A stretch of DNA of 64,000 nucleotides from Acidimicrobiaceae bacterium (GTDB lineage Bacteria; Actinomycetota; Acidimicrobiia; Acidimicrobiales; RAAP-2). Position 1 is the stretch's first letter; each line of letters starts with the position of its first letter. The notes under the pieces are model-generated. The model saw only the letters and a list, made by a program, of their open reading frames with translations, made no database searches and was not told where the DNA came from. Shown one piece after another: positions 4,507-41,459 of the stretch. The stretch lies in assembly GCA_003138815.1 (NCBI GenBank), contig PLHD01000010.1, positions 124,308-188,307 of the forward strand, given 5' to 3'. The position numbers and the translations under genes were made by a program.

Positions 4507-4697
4507 TCCGCGTCAATGGTGAGGGCCACGAGGCGCTCAACGAGACGGTGGCGGACCTGTTGGAGCGTCTGGGCATCGATCCCCGGGGCATCGCGGTCGC
4601 CGTTGACGGGGAGGTCGTGCGCCGGGGCGACTGGCCCACGACGTTGCTCCACGACGGAGCCTCGGTGGAGATAGTCACCGCCGCCGCGGGCGGCTAG
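4503..4697 (+). CDS. thiS: Sulfur carrier protein ThiS
   Basis: 64 aa, GTG start overlapping thiO stop; [39 protein letters not shown]...ASVEIVTAAAGG, C-terminal GG. Confidence 0.88.
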   Translation: MIRVNGEGHEALNETVADLLERLGIDPRGIAVAVDGEVVRRGDWPTTLLHDGASVEIVTAAAGG

Positions 4698-4714
4698 AGG
4701 AAAGAGGGAGAATC

Positions 4715-4867
4715 ATGAAGGTCAATGAGTTGGTCGAAGCGCTCGATGAGCGGATCCATCAGGCGCTGCTCGCCAAGGCCACCGGAGAGACGATCATGTT
4801 CCTCTGCGAAGCCCGCGCGTGGCTCACTAATCCCGATCAGCCTCACGGGGCGCACCGGCAGTCGTAG
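4715..4867 (+). CDS. Small hypothetical protein (50 aa)
   Basis: MKVNELVEALDERIHQALLAKATGETIMFLCEARAWLTNPDQPHGAHRQS; RBS-like GAGGGAG upstream; follows thiS. Confidence 0.45.
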   Translation: MKVNELVEALDERIHQALLAKATGETIMFLCEARAWLTNPDQPHGAHRQS

Positions 4868-20201: not shown

Positions 20202-20692
20202 GCGCGCACCTCATCTATCAGGCCGAGCACCCGGCTGACCGCTTCGGGAACCGCTGCCTGCACGGCGGGGCTCAACCCCTCGCCGAAGTCGAACCTCTCT
20301 CCCTCGATCCCGACGACCACCAGCCGCGTTGGACACTGGTCCACTGCTCGCGCGAGGCGCACGACGCCGGCGAGGCCGATCCCGTGGGTGCTCGTCACGC
20401 CCCACGCGTCGTCGGGCTTGGTCTTCTCGTGCGCCGCGCCCGTGTCCACCTCGAGCACGCGGATCGTGCCGCCCGGCGCGCCCGATCGCAGCGCGTCGAT
20501 CACCACCACCAGGTCGGCGTCGTTCCACTGGCCGAGCAGGTCGAGCGGGTCGCTGAGCGGACCTACGTCCCTGGCCAGCGAGCACTGCTCGGCGATCAGG
20601 GTTGCGACGAGCGGACCGGCACCGTCGTCACGCCGGTCCCGGCTCCCGAATCCGGCCACGACGACCCGGGCGCTGCGAGCAGCCGCGCTCAC
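20192..20692 (-). CDS. NiFe hydrogenase maturation protease
   Basis: VVVAGFGSRDRRDDGAGPLVA...DADLVVVIDALRSGAPGGTIRVLEVD...STHGIGLAGVVRLA; GTG start overlapping hydrogenase large-subunit stop. Confidence 0.82.
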   Translation of the reverse strand: MSAAARSARVVVAGFGSRDRRDDGAGPLVATLIAEQCSLARDVGPLSDPLDLLGQWNDADLVVVIDALRSGAPGGTIRVLEVDTGAAHEKTKPDDAWGVTSTHGIGLAGVVRLARAVDQCPTRLVVVGIEGERFDFGEGLSPAVQAAVPEAVSRVLGLIDEVRACA

Positions 20693-21993
20693 GTGCGCAC
20701 CACCGACACGTCGAGGAAGTGGGCCGCGCACGAGATGCAGGGGTCGTGGTTGCGCACCGACTGCTCGCAGCGCCACTGCAGGTCGTGATCGCTGAGGTCC
20801 AGGCCGCCCTGGACCACGCGACGCAGGTCGTCTTCGATCGTCAGCTGGTTCTGCGACGTTGGCGGCACGATGCGGGCGCTGCGGATGATCCCCGCGTCGT
20901 CGATCTCGTACTGATGGAACAGCAGCCCCCGAGGCGCCTCGGTGGCGCCGGTGCCGATGCCGGCACGCGGCTCCACGAGGTCCGCGCTGGGCTCGGGCGG
21001 CTCGTAGGCCTCGACCAGTGCCAGGGCCTCATCGCACGCGGCGACCAGCTCGACGGCGCGCACCACGATGCTCTTGAACGGGTTGCTGCAGACGTCGCCA
21101 AGGCCGGCCGCGCGAGCGGCCTCGGCCGCCAGGGGCGCCAACTGAGCATTGTTCATGGCGTAGCGCGCCAGGGGGCCGGTCAGGTAGTGATCGGCGCCGC
21201 CCAGGCGTGCGTGCAACGCGGTCGAGCGCGCGACGTGCTCCTCGACGACCAGGTCGGCGAACTGGGCCACGGTGTAGTCGAGACCCTCCGAGGAGCTGGG
21301 CCGGCCCGCCTCGATGGCGTAGCGCTCAGGTTCGTGAAGCGCGACGAAGCGGTACTCGCCGACGACGTCGGGGAACTCGAAGCCGTGCACCCACGACACG
21401 GTGGCGAGGGCCCCGTCACGCGCCCGGCGCAGGGGCTCGGCCAGTGCCGCGATCGCACCGCGGTCCGGTGCACGGTAGAAGCCTCCGACCCTGACGTTGA
21501 CCGGGTGCACCGCGCGCCCTCCGACCGTCTCCATGATCAGGTTGCCCGTGCGCTTGATCTCGAGCCCGCGCTCGACGGCGCGGCGATCGCGCTGGGCCAA
21601 CTCGATCGCGTCCGCGCAGCTCAGGAAGTCCGGCGCGTGAAGCAGGTACACGTGCAGCGCGTGGCTCTGGATCCATTCGCCGCAGTAGAGCAGGCGGCGC
21701 AGCGCCCGTACCCGCTCGCTCACCGTCACGCCGCACACGTCCTCCATCGCCGCGCAGGCCGACATCTGGTACGCCACCGGGCAGATGCCGCAGATCCGCG
21801 CCGTGATATCGGGAGCCTCGCTGAAGTGACGACCGACCAGCAGCGCCTCGAAGTAGCGCGGCGGTTCGAATATCTCGAGCGCCACGTCGGTGACGATGTC
21901 GTCGTGGATCACCACCCGCAGCGAGCCCTCGCCCTCCACCCGCGAGATTCCCTCGATGCCGATGGTGCGGTCGGATTTCGAGCCGTGCGTCAT
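20689..21993 (-). CDS. NiFe hydrogenase alpha (large) subunit, group 3b-like
   Basis: [12 protein letters not shown]..., [15 protein letters not shown] (L1) and [18 protein letters not shown] (L2). Confidence 0.9.
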
Positions 21994-22793
21994 GCGTCTC
22001 CTCGGGCGGACTGGCGCTCGCTCTCGGCGCGAAAGACCGGCGCGTTCGCGTTGAAGGTCCGAAACAGCCTGGAGACGAGTTCGCCCGTGGCGCCGTTGCG
22101 CGAGAGTTGGTCGGCCAGAGAAATGGTGTTGGCGCTTTGCGAAGGCCCGAAGCAACCGAAGCAGCCACGTCCAACTGACGGACAGAGCCCTCCGCATCCC
22201 GCGCGCGTCACCGGACCCAGGCAGGGCGTGGCGTTGGCGACCATGACGCACACGTTGCTCCGGCCCTTGCACTCCTGGCATACCGAATGGCCCGCGACCG
22301 CCGGTCGCCGACCGGCGAGGAACGCGAGCAGCACCTCGAGGAGCTGACGGCGGTCGATCGGGCATCCGTGGAGCTCGTAGTCCACCGCCACGTGGTCGCT
22401 GATCGGCGTGGACGTCTCGAGGGTCTTCAGGTACTCGGGATGGGCGTAAACGGTGCCCGCGTAGGCTCCCTCGGCGGCGAAGTTGCGCAGGCCCTGAATC
22501 CCCCCGGCTGTGGCGCAGGCCCCGATGGTGACGAGATGACGCGAGTCCCTGCGTACCTGTTGAATCCGCTCGGCGTCGTCGGGCGTCGTGATGGATCCTT
22601 CCACGAGCGAGATGTCGTAGGGACCGTCAGTCGATGTCCGCGACATCTCGGTGAAGTGGGCGATGCGCACAGCGCCGGCGAGGGCCAGCAACTCGTCCTC
22701 GCAGTCGAGCAGGCTGAGCTGGCAGCCGTCGCACGAGGCGAACTTCCACACGGCCAGCGTGGGCCTCGCGTCGGTCGCCGAGATCTCGCTCAT
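21990..22793 (-). CDS. NiFe hydrogenase delta (small) subunit
   Basis: [26 protein letters not shown]...[39 protein letters not shown]...[14 protein letters not shown]. Confidence 0.9.
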
Positions 22794-23683
22794 CGCTCGC
22801 GCTCCGCCAGCAGATCGCTCACGACGCCGGCGTACGCCACCACCGGCCCGTCGCGGCACAGGAGGAACGGACCCAGTTGGCAGTGACCGCACCAGCCGAG
22901 GCCGCACTCCATGTTCCTCTCGAGCGACACCAGGATGGCGCGCTGGTCGACACCCATGTCGACCAGCGCGCGCGCCGTGAAGCGCATCATGATCTCGGGC
23001 CCGCAGATCAGTGCCCTCGTGCGGGCGGGGTCGAACGGGGCGCGGCCGAGCAGCGTCGTCACCAGGCCCACGCGCCCGCTCCACTGCGCCGAGGCGCGGT
23101 CGACGGTCAGGTCGACGTAGGCGCCGTCGTCGGCCCACGCCTGGAGGTCCTCGTTGAAGATGATCTGGGAGGGATCGCGCGCGCCGACCAGCACGAAGAC
23201 GCGTCCGCCATTCTCGCGGCTCGCAGCCACCAGCTCTTGCACCGCGCCGCGAAGCGGCGCCAGGCCGATGCCGCCCGCCACCACGACGGTGTCGCGGTCG
23301 CGCCCGTCCTCGGAGCGGTCCCCTATTCGCCAGTCGCTCCCGAAGGGGCCGCGCACCCCGACCAGGTCGCCGACGTCGCTCTGGCACAGGGCGTGCGACA
23401 CCGGACCGACGTCGCGCACCGTATGGCGCAGCGGGCCGGGGTCACGGGGTGCGCCGCTCAGGGAGATGGCGGCTTCTCCGATGCCGAAGGCGCTCAGCAT
23501 GTTGAACTGGCCCGGACGGAACTCGAGACGAGTTCCCGACACCGGCTCCAGCTGGATCGTCACGACGTCATCGGTTTCTCGCCGCCGGCCCACGACGCGG
23601 TGCACGACCGGCGTCATCGCGCCGACCTGAGCGTCTGCGCGCGCCGCCGCGCCGCCGCCGCGCGGGCTTCGCTCAGCGCTCAT
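22790..23683 (-). CDS. Hydrogenase/sulfhydrogenase gamma subunit (FAD/NAD(P)-binding, FNR-like)
   Basis: ...[25 protein letters not shown]...[20 protein letters not shown]...[30 protein letters not shown]. Confidence 0.88.
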
Positions 23684-24143
23684 TGGCTTCACCGTAGAGG
23701 TCCAGAAGGCGCATGCGCGTGGCCTGCAAGCGCGCCAGGATCTGGCCCGCGACCCTCTGCAGCAGCGCGTAGCCGAAGGCCGGGTCGTCCAGCGACTTGG
23801 CCCGCAGGCAGGCTCCGTCGATGGCGATGGCGCCGAGCGAGTCCTGGGCCCGCGCGTCGAACGTCCAGCGGTACGGCTCGATGAGCCAGCTCCACCCGAC
23901 GACCTCACCGGGTCCGATGGTCTCGATCACGAGCTGGCCACGTCCGGGCTCGTGCACTTCGATCGCGGCGTGTCCGCGGCGAAGCAGGTAGAACGTGTCC
24001 GCCGACGCGCCCTCGGCGAAGAGCAGCGCCCCGGGCTCGAAGGCCACGTTTCGCGCGCAGCCCGCGACCAGGGCGATCGCGTCGCTGGAGAGGCCGTTCA
24101 TCAGGGGATACGCCTCGAGCAGCTGGGTCATCGATGTCGTCAC
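23673..24143 (-). CDS. Stand-alone cyclic nucleotide-binding domain protein (no HTH)
   Basis: 156 aa: ...[29 protein letters not shown]...[26 protein letters not shown]; no C-terminal DNA-binding domain. Confidence 0.8.
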
Positions 24144-25327
24144 CGGGCCTCCTCTTCGACGTGGACGGCTCGGGCCGCCTCGTCGTCGCCTCGAATCGCG
24201 GCGGCTTCCTCGGTGATGTCTATGCCCACTGGGCACCACGTTATGCAGCGCCCGCAGCCGACGCAGCCCGAGGTGTCGAACTGGTCCCACCAGGTCGAGA
24301 GCTTGTGGGACATCCACTGGCGGTAGCGCGATGACGTCGACGCGCGTACCGGCCCGCCGTGCAGGTACGAGTGGTCCAGGTCGAAGCACGACGACCACGT
24401 GCGCGTTCGTTCGACGGCTCCGGACACGTCAGTCGTGTCTCGGAAGTCGCTGCAGAAACACGTGGGGCAGACCAGGGTGCAGTTGCCGCACGACAGGCAC
24501 CGCTCGGCTATCTGGTCCCAACGGGGGCTCTCCATGCTGCGCGCAAGCAGTGCCGCCAGTCCTTCGGTCTGGAGATGACGATGCATCCGGTTGATCGACC
24601 GGTCGAGGGCTTGTGCACGCGCCGCGACGTCGGCGTCCGTGGCGCTGGTCGACGAGACTCCCGCCATGACCTCGGCGCCCCGGGCCGTGCCCACGCGCAC
24701 CACGAAGCGGTGGCCATCGGCGTCGTCGAGCTCGAGCAGCGCCAGGTCGAACCCGGGGCCTGCCGAGGGTCCGCTGCCCATCGAAGCGCAGAAGCACGTG
24801 CCGCCCGGTGCCGTGCACTCGGCCACCACTACGAACAATCCCTCGCGGCGGGCGTCGTACCCGGTGTCGGGGCACGCTCCGTTCATCAGCACCTCGTCGA
24901 GCACGGAGATGGCCGCGACCTCACACGGACGCGCTCCGATGATGGCGAGCGGCCGGGCGCTCTTCGTCGGCTCGGTGAACCGCAGGGTGCCGTCCACGAT
25001 CACGGCGCGCCACTGACGCTCGCGCGGCGCGAAGAACTCGGCCTTCCACGACCTGGCTCCGACGGCCCACTCGAAGAGGTGACCGTCATCCGAGTACTCA
25101 AGGCGGTAGCGGCCCGGCGACTGGGCGTCGCGCGCTCCGACGGGCAGGTCGGACGTGCCGCGCACCGCACCGGGCACGATTGCCCCGTCACCAATCGTCG
25201 GTCCCTTGGTCTCGTAGCCCAGGTCGCCCAGGCGGGCTATCAGATCGTTCAGCTGGTCCGGGCGAATAACGACCAGGTCCTCCACGTCCAGATTCGGTCC
25301 AAGTCCGCTTCGATCGTGGAGCGACAT
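24140..25327 (-). CDS. Hydrogenase beta subunit, 4Fe-4S dicluster protein
   Basis: [16 protein letters not shown] and [17 protein letters not shown]; ...[15 protein letters not shown]... Confidence 0.88.
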
Positions 25328-25335
25328 GTCTTCAC

Positions 25336-27660
25336 TTAGCCCGCGTGCGTCGCAGCTTCGTGATGGCCGCGGTGCGCGGGGTCGGCCGCCTCGAGGAGCA
25401 GACGCCATTCGGCGCGGGCGATTGAGCGTCGGGCCGCCTCGATCGCGTCCGGATTGACCGAGATCGACGTGATGCCCAGGCGCACCAATCGCTCGGCGAA
25501 CTCCGGGTGGTTGGACGGCGCCTGGCCGCAGAGCGAAGACGTGATGCCGGATTCGTGGGACCGGGTGATGATCGTTCCAATCGCGTCGAGCACCGCGTCA
25601 TCGGACTCGTCGAAGAGGTCGGCGCAGGTCTGGGAGTCGCGGTCGACGCCGAGCATCAGCTGGGTCAGGTCGTTGCTCCCGATCGACACGCCCTTGATGC
25701 CCATCGCGGCGTACTCGGGAATGCGGTACGCGACCGACGGCACCTCGGCCATCACCCACAACGGCAATTCCCCGCCCACGGGGCTCGAGGCCACGAGCTC
25801 GAGACACGCCTCGAGCTCCCACTTGGTGCGCACGAACGGGATCATCAGCGTGATGTTCGGTGTCTCCTCGAAGACCTTGGCCAGCACGTCGAGCTCGAGG
25901 CGGAACACTTCGGGGTCGCGCACGTAACGGTAGCAACCCCGGTAGCCGATCATCGGATTCTCCTCGACCGGTTCGAACCGCTCGCCGCCTTCGAGGTTGG
26001 AGAACTCGTTGCTGCGGAAATCGATGCTCCGGTAGACGACCGGCCTGGTGCCGAAGGCCCGCGTGATGCGCAACAGCGAGTTCGCCATGGCGTCGACGAA
26101 CGTCTTCTGCTCGCCGCGTTCGATCAGCAGCTTGGGGTGCACGCCACCGAGCGCGTCGGTCACCATGAACTCGGCGCGAAGCAGTCCGACGCCGTCGACG
26201 TCGAGGGCCGCCACTTCCTCGGCGTGCTCGGCGAAAGCGAGGTTGACGTACAGCCGAGTGGCCAGTGGCGGAGTGGTGTGCTCGCCTGTCGCGTGGGGCT
26301 CGGCGCCGCCCGTGGCGACGCTGATCGTGGCCGCGGAAGCCGACGTGTGGACGAGGTCTCCCTCGTAGACCGCGCCCTGGGCCCCGTCGACGGTCACGAC
26401 CTCGCCGTTGCGCAGCACCGTTGTGGCGTTGCGGGCCCCGACCACGCAGGGCACGCCGAGCTCGCGCGACACGATCGCGGCGTGACAGGTGATGCCTCCC
26501 CCGTCGGTGATCAAGGCGCTGGCTCGGCGCATCGTCGGCACCCAGTCGGGGCTCGTCATCTTGGCGACCAGGATCTCGCCGGTGACCAACTGATCGCCCT
26601 GATCGGCGGACTGCAGTATTCGTACTGATCCCGCGGCACGGCCGCTCGAGGCAGCCAGGCCCTGGACCAGCGGCCGTCCCGCCTGGAGGTCGAGCTTCGC
26701 CTCGGGGGCCACGGTGTTCATGACGGTGATCGGTCGTGACTGCACGAGGTACAGTTTGCCTTCCGCCATGGCCCACTCGGTGTCCTGGGGCGAGCCGTAA
26801 TGCGCCTCGGTCGCGAGGCCGAGCCGTGCGAGCTCAAGGGTCTGCTCGTCGGAAAGGACACGCGAGCTGGCCTCGCCGACCGCGAGGTCGACGTTCAGGT
26901 CCTTGCCGTCGGGCCCTCGGATGATCTTGAAGTCCTTGGTGCCCACCCGGACGTGAGCGAGCGTGGGTCCTTCCTTGGAGAGGATGTAGGTGTCGGGCTC
27001 AACTTCGCCGCTGACGACCACCTCGCCCTGTCCGAAGGCGGCTTCGATGACGATCCGGCTCGTGTCGCCGGTGGAGGGGTCGGCCGTGAACATCACGCCG
27101 GAGCGCTCCGAGGGGATCATCTCCTGGACGATCACCCCCATGGCGGGCACGTCGTCGAGCGCGCGGATGATCCGGTAGGAGATGACCCGTGCTCCGTAGA
27201 GCGAGGCCCAGCAGTCCACGATGTTGGTCAGGACTTCGTCATCGCCGCAGACGTTGGTGAACGTCGCGTTCATCCCCGCGAACGACGTGTCGCCGGCGTC
27301 CTCGCCGGTGCCCGACGAGCGAACCGCGACGCGAACCGTCTCGCCCAAGCGGTGGTACGCCTCCAGGATGGCGCTCGACAGGTCGCCCGGCAGCACAATG
27401 GTACGCAGCAGGCTCTGCGCCTCTTCGGACACGCGGTCGAGGTCGGCCGTACTCTCGACGTTCACGTCGGCGAACAGCTTGGCGAGCGCCTCGGAGATCC
27501 CCGCGCTCGCCACGGCGTACCGGTAGGCGTCGGCGGTTACCACGAAGCCTGGGGGGACGGGCAGGTCGGCGACCGTGAGTTCACCGAGATTCGCCCCCTT
27601 TCCACCAACTAGCGGGGCATCGCCCAGACGTATTTCTTCGAACCAGCGTATGAGTTCCAC
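25336..27660 (-). CDS. ppsA: Phosphoenolpyruvate synthase
   Basis: [26 protein letters not shown]..., [23 protein letters not shown] swivelling His; GTG start at 27660 preceded by GGAG; ORF-track M at 27699 is an upstream alternative. Confidence 0.9.
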
Positions 27661-27691
27661 GATCGTTTCTCCGATCAATCGGTGCATTACT

Positions 27692-27707
27692 TTCCGCAAT
27701 CATTCTG
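27692..27707 (-). promoter_or_regulatory. Mirrored motif copy 1 (minus-strand reading CAGAATGATTGCGGAA) upstream of ppsA
   Basis: Near-identical to 27871..27887 (CAGAATTCATTGCGGAA) in opposite orientation. Confidence 0.45.
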
Positions 27708-27870
27708 CTCCTTCTCGTGGTCGGTGTTGTAGGGCAAAAGGTCACTGAAAGCCCTTGCGGGACCGGTGGAGCGCACCGCCGGCGCCTGGCCGGACGTGCC
27801 ATGCGCGTTGGCGATGACAATGGGCCTTTCGCCCCTAAGCGTCAATCCAGAACCTTCGCCATACTGAAGC

Positions 27871-27887
27871 CAGAATTCATTGCGGAA
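27871..27887 (+). promoter_or_regulatory. Mirrored motif copy 2 CAGAATTCATTGCGGAA upstream of cooF
   Basis: See copy 1. Confidence 0.45.
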
Positions 27888-27942
27888 GTCCTGGCCCTTA
27901 GTCGGCAGCAACGCTCGACGAAGCTTCTAGCGGAGGAGGCGG

Positions 27943-28677
27943 ATGATGCAAACCGTGTTCGTTAACCCTGAACGGTGCATTGGCTGCCTGCAGTGCGAGG
28001 TCGCCTGCGCGGTCGAGCATTCGGCGACCCGAGACCTGGCTCAGGCTTGGCGCGAATCGCCGGTTCCACGCACGCGAGTGCACGTCGAAGCCGGTCCAGT
28101 GCCGACCACGGCGTATCCGAACAAGTGCCGCCACTGCAATCCCGCGCCTTGCCAGAAGGTATGCCCGAGCGGGGCAATCACTCGCTCCGACGACGGGGAC
28201 CTGGTCTTAATCGAACCAATGCGCTGCATTGGCTGCGCGATGTGCGCCGTCGTGTGCCCGTTTGACGTCCTGACGTTCCATCCGCTGGTGGGGGCTCTCG
28301 ACCTCGAGACCGCGGTGGCCGTGAAGTGCGACGGGTGTGTCGATCGCGTGAGCCGGGGCGAGGTGCCCGCATGCGTCGAGAGCTGCAAGGTGAATGCGCT
28401 CATCTACGGAGAGATCAACGAGCTCATGGCCAGCGGGCGGCTGCGTGAGACCGGAGCGGTGCTGGCCTTGGCCGGGTCCGCGCCCACGCCGCCCATCGGC
28501 GGCGACCCACTCGCCGGGTGGCACTCATTCGGTGTCGCTCGGGCCGCGGCCGCACTGGAGGCGGTCGAGTGGCGAAGCAGCCGCAGGCCAGACACTCACG
28601 CGGGCGCGACGAGCGTGGTCGGCGACCCAGGGTCGCCGACGAATGAAATCCGAAACGAAGAGGAAGGCACTCAATGA
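27943..28677 (+). CDS. cooF: CooF-like 4Fe-4S ferredoxin-type electron carrier
   Basis: Four Cys clusters: CIGCLQCEVAC, CRHCNPAPCQKVCP, CIGCAMCAVVCP, CDGCVDR...CVESCKVNAL; overlaps cooS start by 4 nt. Confidence 0.88.
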   Translation: MMQTVFVNPERCIGCLQCEVACAVEHSATRDLAQAWRESPVPRTRVHVEAGPVPTTAYPNKCRHCNPAPCQKVCPSGAITRSDDGDLVLIEPMRCIGCAMCAVVCPFDVLTFHPLVGALDLETAVAVKCDGCVDRVSRGEVPACVESCKVNALIYGEINELMASGRLRETGAVLALAGSAPTPPIGGDPLAGWHSFGVARAAAALEAVEWRSSRRPDTHAGATSVVGDPGSPTNEIRNEEEGTQ

Positions 28678-30632
28678 GCACGACCAATGAAGTTGGCGGG
28701 CCCGGTCGCTTGACGGTCCACGATGATGCCCAGCAGATGATTGAGCGAGCCCGCGCCGAGGGCATCGAGACCGTGTGGGACCGACTCCACGCCCAAGAGC
28801 CGCAATGCGGCTACTGTCAGCTGGGTCTCAGCTGCCGCAACTGCGCGATGGGCCCCTGCCGGATCGACCCCTTCGGCGAAGGTCCTCAGAAGGGCGTCTG
28901 CGGCGCCGACGCCGACACGATCGTGGCCCGAAACCTCGGACGCACGATCGCCGCAGGATCTTCGTCCCACTCGGATCACGGCCGGGACGTCCTGGAGGTC
29001 TTCGCCGAAGTGGCCCACGGAGGTGCCAGTGGCTACCGGATCAACGACGAGGCCAAGTTGCGGCGCATTGCCGATGAACTGGGAATCGCCACCGAGGGAC
29101 GCAGCACCACCGAGGTGGCAGTCGACCTGGCCGATGAACTCGTGGCGAACTACGGCAGCGCTAAGGGATCACTTTCCTTCGTCAGTCGAGTACCGGCGAT
29201 TCGTCGCGAGAAGTGGGCCGGACTGTCCATCACGCCGAGGGGCATCGACCGCGAGAACGTGGAGATGATGCATCGAACGCACATGGGAGTGGACAACGAT
29301 TACGTCAACCTGCTCCTGCACGCGCTTCGCACGAGTTTGGCCGATGGCTGGGGCGGCTCGATGATCGCGACCGAGTTGTCGGACATCATGTTCGGAACAC
29401 CGAAGCCGGTAATATCGGAAGTCAACCTCGGAGTGCTCAAGACCGATCAGGTCAACATCGCCATGCACGGGCACAACCCGCTGCTCTCTGACGTTATAGT
29501 GGCGGCGGCCCAGGAGCCCGAGCTCGTGGAGCTGGCCAAGTCCTACGGCGCCAGCGGCATCAACATCGTCGGTCTGTGCTGCACCGGCAACGAGATGCTC
29601 ATGCGCAAGGGCGTGCACATGGCGGGCAATCACCTCATGCAGGAGCTCGTCCTGGTCACCGGGGCGCTCGAGGCGATGGTCGTGGACTACCAGTGCATCA
29701 TGCCGTCGGTCGTCGACGTCGCGAAGTGCTACCACACCAAGGTCATCTCGACTTCAGACAAAGCCAAGTTCCCCGGCGCGACGCACGTGTCGTTCGACCC
29801 TCACCGAGGTGCGGAGATCGCCCGCGACATCGTGCGCATGGCGGTCGAGGCCTATCCGAGCCGCAACCAGAGCCGAGTACGCATTCCGGTCCATCCCGTA
29901 CGGATGATGGGCGGGTTCTCCGTCGAGGCCATTCTCGGCGCGCTGGGAGGCACGCCCCAGCCACTGATCGACGCGATCGTCGCCGGGACGATTCGAGGCG
30001 CGGTGGCGGTCGTAGGGTGCAACAACCCGAAGCTTCCCCAGGACCTCGAGCACATCGAGTTGACGCGGACGCTGATCGAGAACGACATCCTGGTCCTCGT
30101 CACCGGCTGCGCCGCTGTCGCGAACGGCAAGGCGGGTCAGATGATGCCGGAGTCGGCCGCGCTGGCCGGTCCGGGACTGCGCTCGGTGTGCGAGGCGCTC
30201 GGTATCCCGCCAGTGCTGCACATGGGCTCGTGCGTTGACAACAGTCGCATCATGCAGCTCGCAGCGGCCCTCGCCAACGCGCTCGGGGTCGACATCGACA
30301 GTCTCCCGCTGGCCGGTGCGGCCCCGGAGTGGTACTCGGAGAAGGCGGTCGCCATCGGCGCCTACGTCGTAGCCTCGGGAATCACCACGGTGCTCGGCGT
30401 GCAGCCGTCGATATTTGGCAGTTCGAACGTAGTGAACCTACTGGCCGGCGGGCTCGACGGAGTGGTCGGTGCCAAGTTCGCGGTCGAGCCCGATCCCTAC
30501 AAGGCGGCTTTGCTGATTCGTCGACACATCGAGGCGAAGCGCCAAGGGTTGGGCCTTTCGCATACCGCGCCGGAACTGATCACCGCGAACGAATCCGGTG
30601 GCGAGCCGGTTCACGTCAACGCGCGGAGTTGA
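28674..30632 (+). CDS. cooS: Anaerobic (Ni-Fe) carbon monoxide dehydrogenase catalytic subunit
   Basis: Motifs CGYCQLGLSCRNCAMGPCRIDPFGEGPQKGVCGA, SHSDHGRD, MHGHNP, GLCCTGNEMLMRKG, DYQCIMPS, VVGCNNPK, VTGCAA, MGSCVDNSRI, SEKAVAIG. Confidence 0.95.
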   Translation: MSTTNEVGGPGRLTVHDDAQQMIERARAEGIETVWDRLHAQEPQCGYCQLGLSCRNCAMGPCRIDPFGEGPQKGVCGADADTIVARNLGRTIAAGSSSHSDHGRDVLEVFAEVAHGGASGYRINDEAKLRRIADELGIATEGRSTTEVAVDLADELVANYGSAKGSLSFVSRVPAIRREKWAGLSITPRGIDRENVEMMHRTHMGVDNDYVNLLLHALRTSLADGWGGSMIATELSDIMFGTPKPVISEVNLGVLKTDQVNIAMHGHNPLLSDVIVAAAQEPELVELAKSYGASGINIVGLCCTGNEMLMRKGVHMAGNHLMQELVLVTGALEAMVVDYQCIMPSVVDVAKCYHTKVISTSDKAKFPGATHVSFDPHRGAEIARDIVRMAVEAYPSRNQSRVRIPVHPVRMMGGFSVEAILGALGGTPQPLIDAIVAGTIRGAVAVVGCNNPKLPQDLEHIELTRTLIENDILVLVTGCAAVANGKAGQMMPESAALAGPGLRSVCEALGIPPVLHMGSCVDNSRIMQLAAALANALGVDIDSLPLAGAAPEWYSEKAVAIGAYVVASGITTVLGVQPSIFGSSNVVNLLAGGLDGVVGAKFAVEPDPYKAALLIRRHIEAKRQGLGLSHTAPELITANESGGEPVHVNARS

Positions 30633-30636
30633 GAGC

Positions 30637-31524
30637 GTGTGTTCCACGGGCGAGCGGCGAGAGCGGGAAGTGGGTTGGGCGACTGGCGAGGGCGCGCGCG
30701 TCGTCGTCGTGGGCAAGGGTGGCGTCGGCAAGTCAACCCTCACCGCGATGCTGGCGCGGACGATGGCCCGATGCGGCGCCACCGTGGTCGCCGTTGATGC
30801 CGATGAGCAGCGCAATCTCGCTGCGACCCTCGGTCTCGACTCGTCGGCGATGTCGGCCATCGTCCCACTGGCCGGCGACGCCGACTATATCGAGGAGAAG
30901 ACCGGTGCTCGACCGGGTGAGGGATCTGGCGCCATGCTGCGCCTCAATCCCGACACCGGCGACGTGGTGGACCGCCACGCGGTTGCGGCGCCCGACGGCG
31001 TACGCCTGTTGGTCATGGGTGGTGTGCCGCGCGCCGGAGGCGGATGCCTGTGCCCGGAGAACGCGCTTCTCGCCGCGACTCTGGCGAACATGCGCCTGCG
31101 TCGAGGCGAGATGGTCATCATGGACACGCACGCCGGCGTCGAGCACTTCGGCCGCGCCCTCGCACGAGGCTTCGACCGGGCCCTGGTGGTGGTCGAGCCG
31201 ACCTTCAACTCGGTCCAGGTAGGGCTGGAGACCGCTCGCCTTGCCAGGGAGTTGGGCATCGTCGCAATTGACCTCATCGTGAACCGGTGCCGTGACCAGC
31301 AAGATCTGGCTCGCGCACTCGCCTACGTGCAAGGTATGGACGATTCGAAGTTCGGCTCCATTACTGCGCTGCCATTCGACCAAGCGCTGCTGGAGTGCGA
31401 GCCGTCCATCAGCGGGCTGAAGGACGACTCGCCTCTTGCGCTGGCCGTTACCCGGCTGTGTCGCCAGCTCTTCGAGGTTCAGCTCGACGGTTCCGAACAG
31501 GGCGCTCTGGCGGGGGTTCGCTGA
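30637..31524 (+). CDS. cooC: CODH nickel-insertion ATPase CooC-like
   Basis: VVVVGKGGVGKSTLTAMLAR (deviant Walker A), VDADEQRNLAATLG, GGVPRAGGGCLCPENALL (CxC). Confidence 0.87.
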   Translation: MCSTGERREREVGWATGEGARVVVVGKGGVGKSTLTAMLARTMARCGATVVAVDADEQRNLAATLGLDSSAMSAIVPLAGDADYIEEKTGARPGEGSGAMLRLNPDTGDVVDRHAVAAPDGVRLLVMGGVPRAGGGCLCPENALLAATLANMRLRRGEMVIMDTHAGVEHFGRALARGFDRALVVVEPTFNSVQVGLETARLARELGIVAIDLIVNRCRDQQDLARALAYVQGMDDSKFGSITALPFDQALLECEPSISGLKDDSPLALAVTRLCRQLFEVQLDGSEQGALAGVR

Positions 31525-32753
31525 TGCGTGCGGTGGTCATCGGCACGGGTCCCGCGGGTATCACTGCTGCCGAGACACTGCGCCGTCTGGATCCGAGCGG
31601 CTCGGTCGTCGCGCTCTCGAGCGAGCCGTACGCTCCTTACTCCCCCGTCGCGCTGGCAGACCATTTCCTCACTGGCCGCGACGAGACGCTCTACTGGAAG
31701 GGCGAAGGAGTCGCGGAGCGACTGGGAATCGACGAGCGCCGCGAGAGTGTCGTCATGGCCGTTGACGTGGACAACCGTGAGGTCGTGCTCAGCGACGATA
31801 GCCGGATTCCTTTCGAAGGATTGGTGATCGCCTCGGGGAGCCGACTACACGCCCCGATTGAGGGCTCGGACCTCCCGGGCGTCTTTGATTTCAAGTCGCT
31901 GCGAATGGCCACCGACCTCGTGGGCCGTGTCCACCGAGGTGAAGCGCATTCGGCACTCATAGTGGGCAATGGCCTGATCGGGGTCGAATTGTCCCTCCTG
32001 CTGGTGGGCCTCGGAGTCGACGTGTCGATCATTGGACGGCGACCCTGGGTGATGCCCCGGGTCCTCGATCCGGCGACGGCGGCGATAGCCGAGAAGGGTC
32101 TGGTCGATCGAGGAGTGAAGTTGCTTCTCGGCGTCGAGGCCTCGGCCTTCGTCGGATCGCCGCGGGTCAACGGCGTCCGCCTGGCCGACGGGAAGATCCT
32201 CCAAGCCGACCTCGTGATCGCCGCTACCGGTGTCAAGCCCCACGTGGAGTTCCTCAAGGACTCACCAATCGTCTGCGAGTGGGGAATCCACGTCGACAAC
32301 AAGATGCGCACGTCGGTCCCAGGCATCGTGGCGGCGGGAGACGTCGCTGAGGCCGCCGACTGGCTCACCGGTGAGCGCTTCGTGCACGCGATATTCCCCA
32401 ACGCGGTCACGCAGGCCCCGGTTGCCGCCGCCAACCTCCTGGGCGCTAATCTGACGTACGACGGGGCAGAGGCCATGAACAGTTTGAAACACCTGGGAAT
32501 CCCGATTGTTGCGATGGGGACTATCGACAAGCCCGATGACGTACTGAGATGGGAGTCCGCCGGCTGCCTGCGGGCCGTTTACCTGCGCGACGGGACGATC
32601 ATCGGGGCTCAGTTGGCCGGCGACATTCGCTCGGCGGGGGTGTATCGGTCGCTCATGCTTCGTCGAGCCGACGTCACCTGCTTCGGGCGCGGTCTGGTGG
32701 AGCCGGACTTCAACATAGGCACCGTCGTATCGAACGCGCTCGTCTCAAGGTGA
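31524..32753 (+). CDS. FAD/NAD(P)-dependent pyridine nucleotide-disulfide-type oxidoreductase, CODH-associated
   Basis: MRAVVIGTGPAGITAAETLRRLDPSGSVVALSSEPYAPYSPVALADHF; ALIVGNGLIGVELSLLLVGLG; TSVPGIVAAGDVAEA; ATG overlaps cooC TGA. Confidence 0.87.
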   Translation: MRAVVIGTGPAGITAAETLRRLDPSGSVVALSSEPYAPYSPVALADHFLTGRDETLYWKGEGVAERLGIDERRESVVMAVDVDNREVVLSDDSRIPFEGLVIASGSRLHAPIEGSDLPGVFDFKSLRMATDLVGRVHRGEAHSALIVGNGLIGVELSLLLVGLGVDVSIIGRRPWVMPRVLDPATAAIAEKGLVDRGVKLLLGVEASAFVGSPRVNGVRLADGKILQADLVIAATGVKPHVEFLKDSPIVCEWGIHVDNKMRTSVPGIVAAGDVAEAADWLTGERFVHAIFPNAVTQAPVAAANLLGANLTYDGAEAMNSLKHLGIPIVAMGTIDKPDDVLRWESAGCLRAVYLRDGTIIGAQLAGDIRSAGVYRSLMLRRADVTCFGRGLVEPDFNIGTVVSNALVSR

Positions 32754-41231: not shown

Positions 41232-41334
41232 TTAATTCCCCCCAATTGGTTGAACAACGAGTCACCGGGTTTGATGACTCAAAGTTGATTTAACACCATG
41301 AGGGACCGCCGCGCTGGGACCTTGATGGGTATTT

Positions 41335-41350
41335 TGTGAAGTGATTCACA
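41335..41350. promoter_or_regulatory. CRP-family operator-like palindrome TGTGAAGTGATTCACA
   Basis: Exact match to TGTGA-N6-TCACA about 104 bp upstream of satP start (41231, minus). Confidence 0.6.
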
Positions 41351-41435
41351 TCCAGCCGGGACGTTACCCCCCGGTATTTGTCGGAGATTGCCCACAATCC
41401 TTGACGTGCGACTGGGTCGCGAGGCGTCGATTTCA

Positions 41436-41459
41436 AAGTTGGGACCTAAGTCCCAACTT
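41436..41459. terminator. Hairpin downstream of trpA
   Basis: Perfect inverted repeat AAGTTGGGAC-CTAA-GTCCCAACTT next to trpA stop (41462). Confidence 0.6.

Follow-up and report, generated by a model that had tools for sequence, protein, structure and literature searches.

The 282-nt ppsA-cooF intergenic gap (27661-27942) lies between a hydrogen operon and a carbon-monoxide operon in the window, i.e., the whole 64-kb stretch of DNA that was analyzed. The gene ppsA (25336..27660, minus strand) codes for PEP synthase (NF005057 and TIGR01418, both above cut-off) and heads the hydrogenase operon. The start codon GTG at 27660 was favoured over TTG at 27699 and ATG at 27687, and the N-terminus read from this GTG aligns with that of the orthologous locus L035. 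With this start, the gap is exactly the 27661-27942 interval considered in the earlier sequence-only reading. A likely Shine-Dalgarno element of ppsA, GGAG, is seen in the sequence 8 nt before the GTG (27669..27672, minus strand). The [NiFe] hydrogenase genes on the ppsA strand (20689..25408) are of the group 3b type (sulfhydrogenase-like), their top matches being the sulfhydrogenase beta, gamma, delta, and alpha models at scores under the curated cut-offs. The hydrogenase operon also includes a protein with a cNMP_binding domain. On the plus strand, the gap is followed by the gene of a cooF-like 4Fe-4S protein (27943..28677; ferredoxin-type matches), present in 17 CODH loci, and by cooS, encoding the catalytic subunit of Ni-CODH (28674..30632; TIGR01702, 711.6 bits against a cut-off of 478). 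The plus-strand genes of a cooC-like maturation ATPase (30598..31524; MinD/ParA-type matches) and of an FNOR-like FAD/NAD(P) oxidoreductase (31395..32753; profile matches) come next, both assigned with the help of synteny.

The gap was compared across 17 distinct cooF-cooS loci, namely the window, L005, and L033-L047 (the L034 and L035 records correspond to the genomes G016 and G022). These orthologous loci are metagenome assemblies; they come from same-genus relatives and from assemblies of Acidimicrobiaceae and further actinobacteria sampled at palsa, bog, fen, and additional sites. Among the 17 loci, only the window and L035 have ppsA and cooF in divergent orientation. L034 and L005 lack ppsA, and it is the hydrogenase genes that face cooF there. 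Short remnants of the ppsA 5' end (L034, about 4620-4740; L005, about 1170-1230) suggest that the gene was lost there from between cooF and the hydrogenase genes.

Two DosR-type sites were recognised in the gap. Box A, GGGCCTTTCGCCCCTA (27822..27837, plus strand), faces cooF, and box B, GTGACCTTTTGCCCTA (27730..27745, minus strand), faces the ppsA-hydrogenase operon. Box A has 1 mismatch to the stringent DosR consensus GGGACTTNNGNCCCT, which was used for M. smegmatis (PMC6448022), and 0 of 200 shuffles were as good; box B has 3 mismatches to GGGACTTNNGNCCCT with an A added at the 3' end. Box B also matches GKGACYTTNNGCCCTA exactly, as does just one other site in the genome. The full 20-bp palindrome of the Park consensus for DosR/DevR, TTSGGGACTWWAGTCCCSAA, is not matched at box A (7 mismatches). 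As box A fits the shorter consensus of PMC6448022 and not the full palindrome, the term DosR-type is used for it here in place of canonical Dev box. A weight matrix for the window was built only from loci outside the genus-level group of the window. Trained in this way on other lineages, it ranked box B first and box A second among the 127,970 positions in the 64-kb window. When the matrix test was reversed, the cooF box came first or second in all ten other-lineage loci having one.

Of the 17 loci, 16 have a 16-nt site resembling GGGACTTNNGNCCCT with 0-3 mismatches ahead of cooF, always on the same strand. This count and the spacing counts given below are non-independent tests, as the loci are related to each other, which also makes binomial values for them naive. 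In most loci, these cooF-side sites beat at least 95% of the shuffles; the consensus matches of L033 (p 0.055) and L040 (p 0.255) are weak. A second, opposite-strand box facing ppsA or the hydrogenase genes is present in the window, and this box B is conserved in L035, L034, and L005. The sole locus of the 17 without a box is L047, which belongs to the genome G073, where neither a close DosR nor a DosS match was found.

The -10 hexamers were scored with the mycobacterial -10 pattern nANNNT. The predicted -10 hexamer of ppsA is CAGAAT (27702..27707, minus strand), 22 nt after box B, and that of cooF is CATACT (27860..27865, plus strand), 22 nt after box A. The spacing of 22 nt between box B and nANNNT is found in all four loci with this box: the window and L035 (CAGAAT in both), L034 (CAAAAT), and L005 (AAGAAT). 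On the cooF side, nANNNT lies 21-22 nt past the box in 12 of 16 loci and 32 nt past it in the remaining four. On both sides of the gap, the DosR-type box sits just upstream of a -10 element and the spacing is conserved. In seven hydrogenase operons of other lineages, located separately from cooF, the order box (weak in five), 21 nt, nANNNT, and start codon was observed. The boxes of cydA and hsp20 show an equal spacing to nANNNT. It should be noted that at these hydrogenase promoters (L038, L040, L041, L046, L037, L039, and L043) the start codon comes directly after the -10 hexamer, so the seven mRNAs may be leaderless.

The sequence-only reading had drawn attention to a different feature of the gap, a mirrored 16/17-nt motif. 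Both sequences, TTCCGCAATCATTCTG (27692-27707) and CAGAATTCATTGCGGAA (27871-27887), were confirmed in place, and they are indeed near-perfect reverse complements that differ by one indel plus a substitution (CAGAAT-G-ATTGCGGAA versus CAGAAT-TC-ATTGCGGAA). The two arms match across 15 bases with one indel, and the longest gap-free arm is 9 bp. The genome search proposed in that reading, with the pattern CAGAAT-N1-2-ATTGCGGAA, returned just these two copies in the 2.53-Mb genome; this uniqueness adds no support, because far fewer than one chance occurrence is expected for a pattern of 15 bases. Inverted repeats at least as good arose in 29-65% of the dinucleotide shuffles (282- or 400-nt region, four scoring schemes), and 516 of 678 segments of 282 nt along the 64 kb scored at least as high as the motif region under one of the four schemes. 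Under the permissive scoring scheme tried first, the inverted repeat again lacked significance. The footprinting that had also been proposed went against the motif, which is unconserved in the closest orthologous loci. In L035, L034, and L005, the identity of the right arm is 47, 29, and 29%, compared with 49, 48, and 45% for the whole gap, and neither the motif nor a second copy of the pair was found upstream of cooF in any orthologue. The left arm is 75% identical in L035. Its ten non-hexamer bases show 60, 40, and 20% identity in L035, L034, and L005; the partial conservation of the arm comes from its final six bases, which make up the ppsA -10 hexamer CAGAAT. Being at chance level in the shuffles and without conservation in the relatives, the inverted repeat was rejected as a real element, and we conclude that the mirrored motif is a chance resemblance overlapping the ppsA -10. 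The left arm (27692..27707, minus strand) is no separate motif; it consists of the predicted ppsA -10 hexamer (27702-27707), its only well-conserved part, and the next 10 nt. The right arm (27871..27887, plus strand) begins six bases downstream of the last base of CATACT, the cooF hexamer, and forms the start of the predicted cooF leader.

The long-range pairing of the arms that had been suggested is likewise unsupported, as the arms would go onto different mRNAs, transcribed outward, as the same sequence. No family reached the cut-off in an Rfam search of the gap. The plus-strand fold has z = -1.8, its stability being equalled or exceeded by 9 of 200 shuffles, and in the divergent model the gap is not one transcript; an RNA element was rejected, given the absence of an Rfam family above the cut-off and the unconvincing fold stability. 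The 9-mer GAGCAGAAT shared on the plus strand by L033, L034, and L005 was considered as a moved copy of the motif and dismissed, because the alignment shows box B there. The 196-bp interval was also inspected by eye as a possible mobile element (MITE); its edges showed no matching direct repeats.

Two further explanations of the arms were weighed against the reading of the motif as a chance resemblance. That the mirrored motif is a paired operator of some regulator common to both operons seems very improbable to us: there is one copy per divergent gene, only two copies occur in the genome and the left one is partly kept in L035, but the similarity is at chance level, the right copy is unconserved, and what is conserved in the left copy is accounted for by the -10 hexamer. 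It is also unlikely, though less so, that both CAGAAT hexamers are -10 elements and the arms duplicated core promoters, the ATTGCGGAA similarity being accidental. The distance to box B is 22 nt for the left CAGAAT, and that to box A is 33 nt for the right one (27871-27876); in line with this, the spacing of 32 nt in the four relatives lies about one helical turn beyond 21-22 nt, and the hexamer CAATAT of L035 aligns with the right CAGAAT. Against it stands CATACT, whose distance of 22 nt agrees with that of most loci and which recurs as an identical hexamer in L034 and L036. For cooF, the right-arm CAGAAT could still serve as the -10 element instead of CATACT. What stands of the sequence-only reading is its general idea that CO and H2 functions are coordinated through paired promoter elements; it is boxes A and B that support it, and the mirrored motif does not.

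A response regulator with 53% identity to DevR of M. tuberculosis is encoded in the genome. In an independent search, its best PDB match was DevR 3c3w (E 7e-60). This DosR orthologue has a receiver and a LuxR-type domain, and its recognition helix AEKTVKNYVS is identical to that of DevR. A GAF histidine kinase adjoins dosR; its GAF domain matches the heme-GAF structures of DosT/DevS (E about 1e-39), it keeps the HP motif of the proximal histidine, and it has HisKA_3 and HATPase domains. DosS and DosT carry two GAF domains, whereas one was found here. Judged by these sequence features, the kinase is a putative DosS/DosT-type heme sensor. Close DosR orthologues (>50%) were found in 15 of the 17 genomes searched, counting a 96% C-terminal fragment in G062. 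None was found in G068, where a box is present, or in G073, where it is absent; a DosS match was absent from both and from the small assembly G062. The assembly of G068, with a box but without close DosR or DosS, may be incomplete.

Since the genome encodes further response regulators of the NarL/LuxR family, the boxes could be real but read by one of these and not by the DosR orthologue. We regard this as quite unlikely, because the sites match the DosR consensus, the recognition helix is the same as in DevR, and G073 is without both the box and DosR. Control of the CODH side by CooA, FNR, CRP, or Rex seems very improbable. Hydrogenogenic CODH clusters are classically activated by CooA (PMC6344411), but the closest matches for CooA, FNR, CRP, and Rex in the gap have 3, 3, 4, and 6 mismatches, respectively, so that none was accepted as a close site, and the cNMP-binding protein of the hydrogenase operon gave no DNA-binding domain match.

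DosR-type boxes were also observed elsewhere. The gene order dosS-dosR-cydAB has a box between dosR and cydA (L080, 9675-9690), which suggests that cytochrome bd may be under DosR control, and a box also precedes an hsp20 gene. The matrix ranking covered the 64-kb window and the loci; genome-wide site counts come from pattern searches, and the loose scans gave 29, 40, and 48 sites against 14, 23, and 37 in the respective reversed-pattern controls. As these counts are just modestly above the controls, no regulon is listed. In the window, 41439-41454 and 41334-41351 lie upstream of an acetate-permease-like gene (satP-like by eye), which is followed by an acetyl-CoA synthetase-like gene. This upstream region contains the DosR-like near-perfect palindrome GTTGGGACTTAGGTCCCAAC and the Rex/CRP-like palindrome TTGTGAAGTGATTCACAT; the genome has just one other place of this kind. 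Strong DosR-type boxes occur in pairs at L041 16491-16552 and L043 16116-16253, close to an MFS transporter and an aldehyde dehydrogenase/DUF779 frame.

DosR is an oxygen- and CO-responsive regulator of mycobacteria, known mainly from dormancy. In M. smegmatis, the Dos-regulated cluster msmeg_3926-3955 includes hydrogenase 3 (Hyh) and PEP synthase (PMC2799521), and it is DosR-dependent and induced by hypoxia (PMC2799521, PMC13098282). The locus described here resembles this cluster in combining hydrogenase and PEP synthase genes, DosR-type boxes, and the presence of DosS/DosR; it differs in its Acidimicrobiaceae host and in the divergent Ni-CODH operon with a box of its own. The CODH reported for M. 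smegmatis is CoxLMS (PMC13098282), which was not CO-induced (PMC8125079), whereas a Ni-CODH is encoded here. As with ppsA and cooF, the divergent genes narK2 and Rv1738 of M. tuberculosis have one intergenic region in common, which holds several DevR sites (PMC7018068); there are four sites, compared with the two recognised here, and the genes differ. The carbon-monoxide operon is similar to the CooF-CooS-CooC-FNOR type of Ni-CODH clusters (PMC6344411), in which CODH and CooF are combined with a FAD/NAD(P) oxidoreductase. The regulators of Ni-CODH clusters named in the passages considered from that survey, which covered only 5 actinobacterial genomes, are CooA and an NsrR/IscR-like protein, not DosR. 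A literature search found no paper joining DosR with Acidimicrobiia. DosR, hydrogenase, and CO dehydrogenase were named together in three papers from the literature searched: a mycobacterial H2 study and two works that, judged from title and abstract, review CO tolerance and CO-releasing compounds.

The conserved sites, their fixed spacing to nANNNT, and the genes of a regulator and a sensor are observed features, and on this basis we consider it highly likely that the ppsA-cooF gap is a divergent promoter pair switched on by a DosR/DevR-type response regulator. DosR binding, activation, the transcription starts, and the signal are inferred by analogy. Upon a drop in oxygen (or binding of CO/NO to heme), the DosS/DosT-like kinase would phosphorylate DosR, which in its phosphorylated form would bind box A and box B. 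The centre of each box would lie some 42 bp ahead of the predicted transcription start, and the box would overlap the -35 position; RNA polymerase would be activated at CATACT for cooF-cooS-cooC-FNOR and at CAGAAT for ppsA-hydrogenase. Both operons would thus be turned on together in hypoxia, as expected from mycobacteria.

Hypoxia is the safer candidate signal and CO only a possible one, since hydrogenase 3 and PEP synthase of M. smegmatis are Dos-regulated (PMC2799521), and CO induces part of its dos regulon via DosR, the hydrogenases excepted (PMC8125079). It is conceivable, if rather doubtful, that in peatland Acidimicrobiaceae a DosS-type heme kinase serves as a CO sensor co-inducing Ni-CODH and hydrogenase, in a CooA-like role. 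If true, a DosS-type kinase would do here what CooA does in classical CO-oxidising, H2-producing bacteria. The best explanation of the locus appears to be that the mycobacterial module of hydrogenase 3 and PEP synthase extends to Acidimicrobiaceae and to Ni-CODH. This would add Ni-CODH to the likely DosR targets and suggests that the DosR switch may also govern the anaerobic metabolism of gases in uncultivated Acidimicrobiaceae of permafrost and bogs; it would connect oxygen or CO sensing to CO/H2 turnover in thawing peat in a testable way.
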